In this document: positions 41,225 to 47,642 of the stretch, piece after piece
Layout: each line of letters starts with the position of its first letter
How positions within the stretch are numbered: position 1 is the first letter of the stretch
NCBI GenBank assembly: GCA_016220085.1
Contig: JACRIN010000038.1
Coordinates: forward strand, 62,001-126,000
Length of the DNA stretch: 64,000 nt
Reading direction: 5' to 3'
Origin: Planctomycetota bacterium
GTDB lineage: Bacteria; Planctomycetota; UBA1135; GCA-002686595
Notes under the pieces: model-generated
What the model saw: only the letters and a program-made list of their open reading frames with translations
What the model was told of the DNA's origin: nothing
Database searches by the model: none
Program-made: the position numbers and the translations under genes

Positions 41225-42433
41225 TCAGCGCGCGTCGAGCTCGTTCGCGAGGCGCTCGAGGAAGTAGCCGACGTCGGTGACCAGCCCGATGGCTTGCGTG
41301 GTGCCGCGATTGCCGAGTTTGGTCGGCAGCGCTTCCGTCATGTCGACCGCGACAGTGCGCACGCGCGCCGCCAGCAGATTGCCGACCGCGATCGAGTGCA
41401 GCGCGCTCGCGAGCATCAGGCACACGCCGACGTTCTTCAGCTCCGCCGCGTAGGCCTCTTGCGCCTTCAGGACATCGGTGATCACGTCCGCGAGCGGTCC
41501 GTCGTCGCGGATCGAGCCCGCGAGCACGAACGGGACGTCCTTCTTCACGAGCTCGTGCATCACGCCGGTCTTCACGAGGTTCGTGTCGACCGCGCGGCGG
41601 ATCCCGCCCGCGCGGTTGACGGCGTTGATCGCCCACAGGTGGTTGCGCGAGCCGCCTTCGACGGCGCGACCGCTCATCTGGCAGACGCCGAGGCTCGTCC
41701 GCAGCAGGCTCTTCTCGAGATCGTGCGCGGCGAACGCGTTGCCGGAGAGCACGACGTCGACCCAACCCGCGCGCACGAGCTGGATCAACGCCGCGTCGCC
41801 TCCCGAGTGCACGATCGCCGGCCCGAGCACGAACGCGATGCGCTCGCCGCGAGCGCGCGCCTCGCGCATCGCGCGCGCCGCGGCCGCGACGACGACGTGC
41901 TTGTTGACCTCCATCGAGATGTCGTTCGACATGAAGCCGAACGCGCCTTTGCCGCGAGCACGTTCCAGTGGCTTGACCCGGATGCCGGCGCCGCGCAGAG
42001 CGACGGGTTCGCCTTGCTTGACGAGCCGCTGCTTGACGCACACTGGCGCGCCGTCGCGCAGCACCAACGCGCAGTCCATCTTCTGCTCGCTCGCGGCCAG
42101 CCACTTGCCGTCGAGCCGCACGTAGGTGTCGAAATTGGACGTGGAGTAGAACTCGTCGGGCACGATGCCGTCGCGCTCGGCGGGCGCGAACGTCGCGTCC
42201 TTCACGACGCTCGACGCGCCGAGGTAGGAGAGCTGCTCCAGGATCCGGTCGAGCGCGTCCGGATCCTTCGCGCGAACGGCGAGCTCTGCGGTCGACGTCT
42301 CCTCGCTGGTCTTGCCGACGGTGCAGCGGAGCACTTCGAATTCGCCGCCGCCCTCGACGATGCGCGCGAACGCGCGACGGAGGATGTCGGAGTCGATGAT
42401 GTGGCCTTCGAGCGTGACGACTTCTTGCACCAT
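41225..42433 (-). CDS. TIGR00300/LOR-SDH family protein (ornithine cyclodeaminase-like)
   Basis: The product is 402 aa. It matches the TIGR00300 family, whose C-terminal part is the LOR/SDH fold used by the archaeal ornithine cyclodeaminase and by AgrE-type arginine enzymes in cyanobacteria. Signatures are 'VTLEGHIIDSDIL', 'EVLRCTVGKTSEETSTAEL', 'FAPAERDGIVPDEFYSTSNF', 'FVLGPAIVHSGGDAAL' and 'GNAFAAHDLEKSLL'. The start ATG is chosen because AGGAGAACCCC precedes it; the longer frame lacks similarity. It may convert ornithine to proline. No partner genes for arginine use are adjacent. Confidence 0.85.
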   Translation of the reverse strand: MVQEVVTLEGHIIDSDILRRAFARIVEGGGEFEVLRCTVGKTSEETSTAELAVRAKDPDALDRILEQLSYLGASSVVKDATFAPAERDGIVPDEFYSTSNFDTYVRLDGKWLAASEQKMDCALVLRDGAPVCVKQRLVKQGEPVALRGAGIRVKPLERARGKGAFGFMSNDISMEVNKHVVVAAAARAMREARARGERIAFVLGPAIVHSGGDAALIQLVRAGWVDVVLSGNAFAAHDLEKSLLRTSLGVCQMSGRAVEGGSRNHLWAINAVNRAGGIRRAVDTNLVKTGVMHELVKKDVPFVLAGSIRDDGPLADVITDVLKAQEAYAAELKNVGVCLMLASALHSIAVGNLLAARVRTVAVDMTEALPTKLGNRGTTQAIGLVTDVGYFLERLANELDAR

Positions 42434-42600
42434 GGGGTTCTCCTGCGCTCGTTGTAACGCCTGGACGCCGGCGCTCCGAGCCGCAGCCGGATCGGTCGCG
42501 CGTCGAGCGCCGTTCGGCGACGACCGAGTCGCGCGCGACCCCCGCCGGGATCGTGCGCGCCTCGGTACGACTCCGTAGTCGCTCGGAGCGGCGAGCCTGC

Positions 42601-42606
42601 TAACCT
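42601..42606 (+). promoter_or_regulatory. TAACCT -10-like box next to a leaderless GTG start
   Basis: The hexamer ends eight bases before the GTG at 42615 and no ribosome site is present, so transcription may start at or near the start codon. A convincing -35 box is not visible. Confidence 0.35.
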
Positions 42607-42614
42607 CTCGCCCC

Positions 42615-43814
42615 GTGCAGGATCTGATCATCGTCGGCGGCGGCATCGGCGGCGCGAGCCTCGCGTTCCACGCGGCGCGCGCCGGAGCCCGCGTGCTCGT
42701 GCTCGAGAAGGATTCGGAGCCCGGCGGCTGTCTCTGCACCGCGCGGACCGACGCGGGCTTCTGGTACGAGCTCGGCGCGCACACTTGCTACAACTCGTAC
42801 GGCGCGTTCCTGGAGCTGCTCGAAGGTTGCGAGCTCATGGGCGAGCTGCAGCCGCGCGCGAAGCCGGTCCTGCGCTTCCTCGACGATGGCCGCGTGTTGC
42901 CCGGCAAGAACCTCGGGCTGCTGGCGTCTCAGTTCTCGAAGCTCGAGCTCTTCGCGTCGATCCCGCGCTGGTTCGGCGGCAGCCAAGAGGGCCAGACCGT
43001 GCGTTCGTACTACTCGCGCTTCGTCGGCGCGAAGAACTACGAGCGCGTGCTCGGTCCGATGCTCTCCGCGGTGCCCTCGCAGACCGCCGACGACTTCCCG
43101 GCGGACATGCTGTTCAAGAAGCGCGAGCGTCGCAAGGACGTGCTGCGCAGCTTCACGTTGAAGCGCGGCCTGCAGACCGCGGTCGAGCGCGCGCTCGCGC
43201 GTCCCGGCGTCACGCTGCGCACCAACGCGGCCGCCAAGGGCGTCGAGCGCTCGTCGCGCGGCTTCGTCGTCGTGCTCGAATCGGGCGAGCGGCTCGAAGC
43301 GGCGAAGCTCGCGCTCGCGCTGCCGCCCCAGGCCGCCGCGAAACTGCTCGGAGGCGTCGCGCCCGAAGTCGCGGCTCTCGCGGCGCAATTGAAGGAGGCC
43401 GAGCTCGACACGCTCGGCTTCGCGGTGCGCGCGGAGCGCGTGCACGTGCCGACCGCGACCTTCTTGATCCCGCTGAAGGATCAGTTCCACTCGATCGTGA
43501 CGCGCGACGTCGTGCCCGATCCGACGTGGCGCGGCTTCGCGATGCACTTCCGGCCCGGCCTCGCGCGCGAGGCGCGCGTGCGCCGCGCGTGCGAGGTCCT
43601 CGGGCTCTCTCCGAGCGACCTCGAAGCCGTGCGCGAGCGCCGCGTGCGCCTGCCGTCGCCGGTGCTCGGTCACGCGGACACCGTGCGCGCGCTCGACGCT
43701 CGCCTCGCGAAACTTCCGCTCGCCCTGACCGGCAATTGGTTCGGCGGCCTGGCGATCGAAGACTGCGTGTTGCGCTCGCGCGCGGAGTGGCAGCGGCTCG
43801 CCACCCTCGGCTGA
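42615..43814 (+). CDS. FAD-dependent oxidoreductase (protoporphyrinogen-oxidase/amine-oxidase-like)
   Basis: This 399-aa protein begins at GTG with the dinucleotide-binding motif GGGIGGASLAFHAARAG followed by 'LEKDSEPGGCLCTA', the pattern of NAD(P)-binding FAD oxidases (HemY/PPOX and amine-oxidase type). The rest has 'ELGAHTCYNSYGAF', 'RFVGAKNYERVLGPMLSAVP', and a C-terminal 'NWFGGLAIEDCVLRSRAEW' that completes the FAD site. It could oxidise a porphyrinogen, amine or carotenoid-type substrate; the family alone does not decide. A -10-like TAACCT lies eight bases before the start and no ribosome site is seen. Confidence 0.85.
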   Translation: MQDLIIVGGGIGGASLAFHAARAGARVLVLEKDSEPGGCLCTARTDAGFWYELGAHTCYNSYGAFLELLEGCELMGELQPRAKPVLRFLDDGRVLPGKNLGLLASQFSKLELFASIPRWFGGSQEGQTVRSYYSRFVGAKNYERVLGPMLSAVPSQTADDFPADMLFKKRERRKDVLRSFTLKRGLQTAVERALARPGVTLRTNAAAKGVERSSRGFVVVLESGERLEAAKLALALPPQAAAKLLGGVAPEVAALAAQLKEAELDTLGFAVRAERVHVPTATFLIPLKDQFHSIVTRDVVPDPTWRGFAMHFRPGLAREARVRRACEVLGLSPSDLEAVRERRVRLPSPVLGHADTVRALDARLAKLPLALTGNWFGGLAIEDCVLRSRAEWQRLATLG

Positions 43815-43940: not shown

Positions 43941-44357
43941 TCAACCCGGCGCGACATCGCTCGGCAGTCGATCGAGGATCGCGCGATACAACCTCTGCGC
44001 GAGCGTCAGCGCTTCCGTCGCCTCCGCCTTCGATGGCGCTGCCCACTCGCCCGGATAGCGGTGCTTCCACGCGTACTGACTCAACACGAGCGCGGCCTGG
44101 AGCGGTTCGCGCAACGTCGGATCGAGCGCCAACGACGGCTCGGCGATCTCGATCAAGTGGTGAGTCTTGCGGAAGGTCAGCCCGTGCCACGTCAGCCACG
44201 CCTTGATCACTTTCTCGGCGGCTTGCTGCGCGTGATACGTCGCCGTCGCAGGGAGCGAGCGGCGCGCGTGGGGACACAGCTCGCTCGCGGAGAGGTCCTC
44301 GTCGGCCTTCGCGAGCCAGGCGCGGGTTTCCTGGACGACCAGCGGATCAGGCGGCAT
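43941..44357 (-). CDS. HEPN-domain toxin-like protein of a HEPN/MNT pair
   Basis: The product is 138 aa. It is all-helical, with 'AWLAKADEDLSASEL' and 'YHAQQAAEKVIKAWLTWHG', the helices of HEPN domains, plus 'RKTHHLIEI' and a C-terminal 'WKHRYPGEW'. A clear Rx4-6H ribonuclease motif is not visible, so nuclease activity cannot be asserted; the RYP element is typical of HEPN partners of minimal nucleotidyltransferases. It overlaps the MNT gene by 11 bp, with the nucleotidyltransferase first. The pair is a type VII-like toxin-antitoxin or AMPylation module. It lies between two copies of the pirin 3' end. Confidence 0.85.
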   Translation of the reverse strand: MPPDPLVVQETRAWLAKADEDLSASELCPHARRSLPATATYHAQQAAEKVIKAWLTWHGLTFRKTHHLIEIAEPSLALDPTLREPLQAALVLSQYAWKHRYPGEWAAPSKAEATEALTLAQRLYRAILDRLPSDVAPG

Positions 44358-44682
44358 ACAGCAGCGCGCCTTCGCGTAAGACCGTCGCCGGCAACGACGA
44401 CGGCACGCGCGCGGCCTTCGCGTCGAACGTGGAGCTCGTCGTCACGACGACGTCCGCGCCGCGGCGCAGGCCGAGCTGATTTCGGTAGAAGAGCCCGCAG
44501 TCGCGCCGATCGACGTCGGCGCTGTCCGGCACCAACACGACCAAGTCGTAGTCGCTGTCGGCTCCGGCGTCCGCGCGGGCGCGCGAGCCGAAGAGGTAGA
44601 TCCGCTCCGGCCCGTAGCATTCGACCAGCCGACGAACGATCGCGGCGAGATCCGGATCGCGCGCGACGAGGTCGGAGAGCAT
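44347..44682 (-). CDS. Minimal nucleotidyltransferase (MntA-type antitoxin)
   Basis: This 111-aa protein carries the nucleotidyltransferase motif GSRARADAGADSDYD (G32-S33, ten residues, D44-x-D46), which matches the GSx10DxD signature of MntA-like antitoxins that add AMP to HEPN toxins. Upstream helix 'PERIYLFG' and strand 'YDLVVLVP' fit the fold. A third acidic residue in 'GADVVVTT' could complete the site. The start lacks a ribosome site; a TAGACT box (44689-44694) ends six bases upstream. It is followed directly by the HEPN gene with an overlap. Confidence 0.88.
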   Translation of the reverse strand: MLSDLVARDPDLAAIVRRLVECYGPERIYLFGSRARADAGADSDYDLVVLVPDSADVDRRDCGLFYRNQLGLRRGADVVVTTSSTFDAKAARVPSSLPATVLREGALLYAA

Positions 44683-47083: not shown

Positions 47084-47332
47084 TCAGCCGAGGCGCTTCG
47101 CGATCGCCGCCACGATCTCGTCTTCGTCGGGCCAGCCGCCGCCGAAGAACTTCGCGAGGAAGCCTTCGTCCTTCGAAGCGACGAGCTCGCCGTCGGCGAG
47201 CACGTCGAACTGCCCCGAACGTCCTTGTTCGAACTCGACGTCGAGGTCGAGCTCGTCCTTGATCGTCGCGGCGAGACTCGCCGCGCGATTGCGGTAGCCT
47301 CAGGCCTGGCAGAAGATGATCTTGAGGTGCAT
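47084..47332 (-). CDS. selW: SelW/Rdx-like selenoprotein with in-frame UGA (Sec11)
   Basis: From the ATG at 47332 the frame reads MHLKIIFCQA, then TGA (47302-47300), then GYRNRAASLAATIKDEL and a complete short domain ending 'EDEIVAAIAKRLG' and a true stop at 47084; 82 residues with selenocysteine at position 11. C8-Q-A-U11 is the CxxU redox motif in the first strand-loop of SelW/SelT/SelH (Rdx) proteins, and 'FDVLADGELVASKDEGFLAK' and 'WPDEDEI' fit the rest of the thioredoxin-like fold. A hairpin right after the UGA is a plausible bacterial SECIS. An 83-codon sequence that is fully alignable on both sides of one TGA argues against decay. It follows the Dabb gene by 7 bp. Confidence 0.85.
47264..47302 (-). 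promoter_or_regulatory. Bacterial SECIS-like hairpin following the UGA codon
   Basis: On the minus strand, 21 bases after the UGA, CGCGGCGA pairs with TCGCCGCG (47285-47278 with 47274-47267), leaving a GUC loop; a bulged base and two more pairs extend it. The loop-to-UGA distance and a G at the start of the apical loop match bacterial SECIS rules recognised by SelB. Confidence 0.7.
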
Positions 47333-47339
47333 CGCGCGC

Positions 47340-47642
47340 TCAGAAGTCGAAAGCGACCACGCCGTCTAGCCCGCCGTCGAGGATCTTCAGCACTGCCGCC
47401 TTCACCTTGTCGTGCTCCGGATGGAAGAGGTAGAGGTCGCGCTCCTTCGCGTTCGTGAACGTCATCACGAAGCCGAAGTTGAAGCCCTTGTTCAAGCCTT
47501 CGGGCGAGGTGTAAGGACCCCACGCGTAGGACTTCAGGCCCTTGACGTGCTTCTTCATGCTGCCGATCGCCGCGAACGTCTTGTCGATCGTCGCCTTCGA
47601 CGTGCGCGGCTTGATGCGCAGCAAAACCATGTGGTGGATCAT
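47340..47642 (-). CDS. Stress-responsive A/B barrel (Dabb) domain protein
   Basis: The product is 100 aa and a complete Dabb fold: 'MIHHMVLLRIKP' at the start, 'GSMKKHVKGLKSYAWGPY', 'GFNFGFVMTFTNAKERDLYL', 'HPEHDKVKAAVLKIL', and a final 'DGVVAFDF'. Dabb domains dimerise and occur in small oxygenases and stress proteins. The ATG at 47642 begins the domain. It is the first gene of a short operon with the selenoprotein, 7 bp apart. The role is unproven; the pairing with a redox selenoprotein hints at oxidative-stress function. Confidence 0.88.
   Translation of the reverse strand: MIHHMVLLRIKPRTSKATIDKTFAAIGSMKKHVKGLKSYAWGPYTSPEGLNKGFNFGFVMTFTNAKERDLYLFHPEHDKVKAAVLKILDGGLDGVVAFDF

Follow-up and report, generated by a model that had tools for sequence, protein, structure and literature searches.

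A predicted SelW-like selenoprotein gene with a conserved in-frame UGA and a covarying SECIS hairpin in a Planctomycetota genome

SelW-like selenoproteins with a CxxU motif and a bacterial SECIS have been on record since 2005, and neither the family nor its mechanism is new. They formed the most abundant selenoprotein family in a survey of the Sargasso Sea, with 48 genes, and that survey called their function unclear, inferring a redox role from the CXXU motif (Zhang, Fomenko and Gladyshev 2005; PMC1088965). A 2026 review gives the family as CxxU, PF10262 (PMC13188914). Delivery of selenocysteinyl-tRNA-Sec by SelB bound to an mRNA hairpin is the established bacterial mechanism (PMC1794560), and Planctomycetes having selenocysteine (Sec) genes have already been described (PMC4807772).

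Here we report a gene, in a 64,000-nucleotide stretch of a Planctomycetota genome (the window), that very probably encodes a SelW-like (Rdx family) selenoprotein with a UGA read as Sec, a reading supported by the family match, the Sec machinery of the genome, the UGA found in every relative read in a first set and a covarying SECIS. Like bacterial SelW-like proteins (PF10262; PMC1088965), its predicted product of about 80 residues has CxxU in the N-terminal beta-alpha loop of an Rdx fold and a bacterial SECIS straight after the UGA, but it carries a roughly seven-residue insertion before the WPD/RFP motif that is common to a Planctomycetota clade. Mammalian SELENOW (mouse SelW, 2npb) shares the fold and CxxU (Foldseek TM 0.67, 28% identity), whereas the SECIS of the eukaryotic gene sits in the 3' UTR and that of the window gene within the coding region, immediately downstream of the UGA. 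The best structural matches are the SelW-related bacterial structures 2fa8, 2oka, 2obk, 2ojl, 2p0g and 3dex, which share the fold but only 15-26% identity with the window product, and which, unlike the window gene with its UGA, we take to be Cys forms.

Both strands were read, and the frame lies on the minus strand (47332-47084), where 10 sense codons, TGA, 71 sense codons and a TGA terminator follow one another (Table 1). The predicted product is MHLKIIFCQAUGYRNRAASLAATIKDELDLDVEFEQGRSGQFDVLADGELVASKDEGFLAKFFGGGWPDEDEIVAAIAKRLG, with the redox motif C8-x-x-U11. The initial annotation had given these coordinates and codon counts exactly, had placed C-x-x-U at the redox motif, as we also find, and had correctly put the gene 7 bp from a Dabb gene (gap 47333-47339); it left the strand unstated, and a plus-strand reading of 47084-47332 is meaningless. 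The Dabb and selW-like genes are probably co-transcribed. Their adjacency is retained in two congeners and was not seen in relatives more distant than the genus; because it holds within the genus only, the Dabb neighbour says little about function, and we dropped the pairing as a functional clue.

Table 1. Positions in the window of the selW-like gene, its predicted functional elements and the neighbouring gene.
Feature	Position	Strand	Basis
Predicted selW-like selenoprotein gene	47084..47332	minus	82 aa + TGA stop, from translation
In-frame UGA, codon 11, predicted to be read as selenocysteine	47300..47302	minus	same codon is UGA in relatives
Cys8, putative resolving partner in CxxU	47309..47311	minus	invariant, protein alignment
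Bacterial SECIS hairpin	47267..47285	minus	8-bp stem, apical loop GUC, covariation
Ser19 codon AGT, its G-U opening the apical loop	47276..47278	minus	xGT in 31/31 relatives
Long-form insertion region, before the WPD motif	47135..47167	minus	alignment; low-confidence stretch of the AlphaFold model
Dabb (stress-responsive A/B barrel) gene, directly upstream of the selW-like gene	47340..47642	minus	Pfam PF07876, 72.3 bits

The SelW/Rdx-like identity first proposed from the letters alone is borne out by protein profiles and by the predicted structure, for both of which Cys was substituted for Sec at position 11. The product scores 43.6 bits against Pfam Rdx (PF10262), where the cut-off is 22.6, and 37.2 bits against NCBIfam TIGR02174 CXXU_selWTH, where it is 34.2; with the narrower Campylobacter equivalog NF041051 it reaches 52.2 bits, under that model's cut-off of 88. 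An AlphaFold model built from an alignment of 15 relatives (mean pLDDT 87.7) has the order beta-alpha-beta-beta-beta-alpha, and the alignment and model place CxxU between strand 1 (E3-7) and helix 1 (H14-28). Foldseek's 23 best matches, at E <= 0.001, comprise SelW-related structures from bacteria together with mouse SelW and MIEN1, a human relative of SelW, and the SelW structures are matched with probability 1.00 and TM 0.67-0.83; 2ojl, 3dex, 2fa8, 2oka, 2p0g and mouse SelW 2npb are among them. In this model the product adopts the thioredoxin-like SelW fold.

Relatives were found by genome searches in 24 of 61 related genomes, together with 12 loci in public genome contigs, and span records of Planctomycetota, Actinomycetota, Myxococcota and Pseudomonadota. 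Every one of the 31 first-set relatives that could be read by motif has UGA at codon 11 or at the position aligned with it (31/31), with Cys three residues before the UGA and a frame running well beyond it, and no homologue among those read ends at the TGA. Four more loci with one internal TGA each (L053, L054, L056 and L059) were missed by the motif reader and stand outside the 31. Across a phylum-wide set, 34 of the 37 copies read have UGA at this codon, which aligns with the Cys/Sec of SelW, and the other residue seen there is Cys, in three paralogues. The coding sequence past the UGA is under purifying selection: three comparisons within the genus, involving two congeners, give dN/dS of about 0.19, 0.20 and 0.25.

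The UGA form and the Sec machinery also tend to occur together. An Rdx match is present in 85 of 199 genomes sampled across the phylum, and 84 of these 85 hold a copy having one internal TGA. selA was detected in 76 of the 84 genomes with a UGA copy versus 60 of the 115 others (Fisher p = 5e-9, from hand-transcribed lists and a test that ignores shared ancestry). The eight genomes that have a UGA copy and lack a selA match over the cut-off are probably incomplete drafts, and the sole genome with the Cys form only (G064) has no selA match.

The hairpin that follows the UGA satisfies the published description of a bacterial SECIS. The limits given are a loop of 3-9 nt, a stem of 4-16 bp, a spacing of 16-37 nt from the UGA and an MFE of <= -7.5 kcal/mol, with G at loop position 1 or 2 and frequently a G or U after it (PMC13188914, 2026 review). 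The window hairpin has a loop of 3 nt with G at position 1 and then U, a stem of 8 bp, a loop start 22 nt after the UGA and a folding energy of -19.7 kcal/mol for 40 nt. Among 30 distinct sequences, standard pairs fill 92.5% of pair cells, double-sided changes occupy 35 cells versus 14.0 +/- 2.3 in shuffles, and the covariation score is 0.436 versus 0.157 +/- 0.021, a value reached in none of 500 shuffles; slid registers pair only 28-52%. The G-containing apical loop and its distance, as the initial annotation had described them, are those of a conserved SECIS. That annotation had relied in part on the hairpin's shape, which does not discriminate by itself here: of 956 TGA triplets on both strands of the GC-rich window, 46 (about 5%) precede a perfect stem of 8 bp or more whose loop contains G, and 15 of the 46 also sit within an open frame. 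Because so many TGAs carry such hairpins, shape alone is weak evidence, and the proof rests on the conservation of UGA, frame and hairpin in relatives. A shape scan over all TGAs of the window was rejected as a discriminator for its many false positives, the stability of the hairpin against shuffles was z -2.1 for 40 nt and not significant over a wide stretch (z -0.64), and Rfam searches of the window and of the gene returned nothing real.

The SECIS also constrains codon use in the gene that it lies in. The loop G-U does not vary among the 31 relatives, and the codon that holds it is always AGT, GGT or CGT (Ser, Gly or Arg), although in the window AGT makes up 2.6% of Ser codons and GGT 9.7% of Gly codons. 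The hairpin forces a rare serine codon, and the relatives show clearly how a SECIS can override codon choice within a reading frame. In the Cys-type paralogue that this genome also carries, the codon corresponding to AGT of the Sec form is GCG (Ala), and there is no GU loop. Some UGA copies of the phylum-wide set deviate from the loop GU, for example L073, L075 and L097.

The window's own genome, a draft of 5.55 Mb in 111 contigs, encodes selA (481 bits), selB (308 bits), selD (319 bits) and tRNA-Sec (72.9 bits, anticodon UCA), the four components whose absence, the initial annotation held, would have told against a selenoprotein. The selD gene (L020:1501-2475) itself carries an in-frame UGA at the classical position (VYAACAGUAGK, motif CAGU), as does an fdhA-like gene for a formate dehydrogenase alpha subunit (L105:1501-3369; SCNRTUHAPSV, classical SCNRTU position). 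Because all four components were found and selD and FdhA also contain UGA, the Sec system is complete, with at least three predicted clients.

These observations bear on other ways of reading the locus. A short leader peptide, or an internal start, would fit the 10-codon open reading frame that terminates at the UGA; however, those 10 residues supply a conserved fold with its first beta strand and with half of its CxxU motif, and the first ATG, GTG or TTG past the UGA is the GTG at Val44, a start at which would cost more than half of the protein, making this explanation highly unlikely. Less likely still is a pseudogene, a SelW-like Cys gene whose codon 11 was hit by a nonsense mutation or misread in sequencing. 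The draft state of the genome (86% complete) and the presence of a Cys-type Rdx paralogue in it speak for such an origin, but two congeners with 86% and 76% identity have UGA at the same codon, as do all relatives read, the position is never UAA or UAG, and dN/dS is about 0.2 past the UGA; the frame conservation on which the annotation had relied holds. Conservation of the UGA and covariation in the hairpin refute the pseudogene.

That the frame reads through the UGA could also reflect a genome-wide reassignment of UGA to a sense codon (a Trp or Gly code) instead of Sec. Yet TGA is the commonest stop in the window, ending 22 of its 26 genes and the selW-like gene itself, and because it is the usual stop we conclude that the UGA is recoded locally and not reassigned. 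The presence of tRNA-Sec, selA and selB, and the alignment of the codon-11 residue with the Cys/Sec of SelW, also speak against reassignment, which we consider the least likely of the explanations weighed.

If the gene is a SelW-like selenoprotein, as we conclude, SelB bound to the mRNA hairpin just past codon 11 would deliver selenocysteinyl-tRNA-Sec to the UGA, which would thereby be read as Sec instead of as a stop. The 82-residue product would fold as SelW, with Cys8-x-x-Sec11 in the active-site loop. Cys8 and Sec11 most likely form a reversible selenenylsulfide, as the CxxU motif and the fold suggest, and the product most likely serves as a small redox protein of the thiol/selenol type. 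Computation establishes the reading frame, the homology, the conservation of the UGA, the covariation of the SECIS and the presence of the Sec machinery; we infer that Sec is actually inserted, and likewise the redox chemistry, the partner and the physiological role.

Two points are new, if modest: a long form that is monophyletic, and the presence in this genome of a short paralogue with Cys. The long form exceeds the short form by about seven residues, which lie before the WPD motif, and makes up one clade of 18 rows in the tree (support 98/86), delimited by eye, as automatic labels wrongly gave L077, L091, L097 and L100 as long and L075 as short and their counts were left unused. In the phylum sample, eight further genomes encode both forms, long and short. 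The short paralogue of the window's genome (G000 contig C37:187344-187553; L084, L001) encodes CxxC, and both selW-bearing congeners (G001 and G002) also have a non-UGA paralogue. Because this Cys paralogue groups with a Sec-encoding relative, at a support of 97/75 that is not full, its sequence suggests a Sec-to-Cys conversion in an organism still using Sec; in organisms that use Sec, Cys homologues of SelW-like proteins had been reported as few or absent (PMC1794560, 2006). A tentative reading, which we think rather unlikely as a whole, is that long-form proteins make up a separate SelW subfamily of Planctomycetota whose extra loop might bring a redox partner unlike that of canonical short SelW, the long form being kept as Sec and the short one turned to Cys in the window's genus.

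Ordinary gene callers truncate or miss selenoprotein genes of this kind. Planctomycetota are scarcely mentioned in the selenoprotein surveys consulted, and about four in ten of the 199 sampled genomes have a UGA-containing SelW-like gene; these results are useful for annotation and for selenium ecology, and unsurprising to specialists. Additionally, selA is near-universal in the order of the window's organism, where 59 of 61 genomes have it, and exceeds its cut-off in 135 of the 199 Planctomycetota genomes (about two thirds), which is commoner than the literature consulted suggests. Elsewhere in the window, the minus strand encodes a protein with a LOR/SDH conserved region and ArgZ-like C-terminal domains (41228-42697) and a HEPN domain gene beside a small nucleotidyltransferase (MNT) gene (43941-44682), the arrangement of HEPN/MNT toxin-antitoxin pairs, which is also found in a congener contig (L024).
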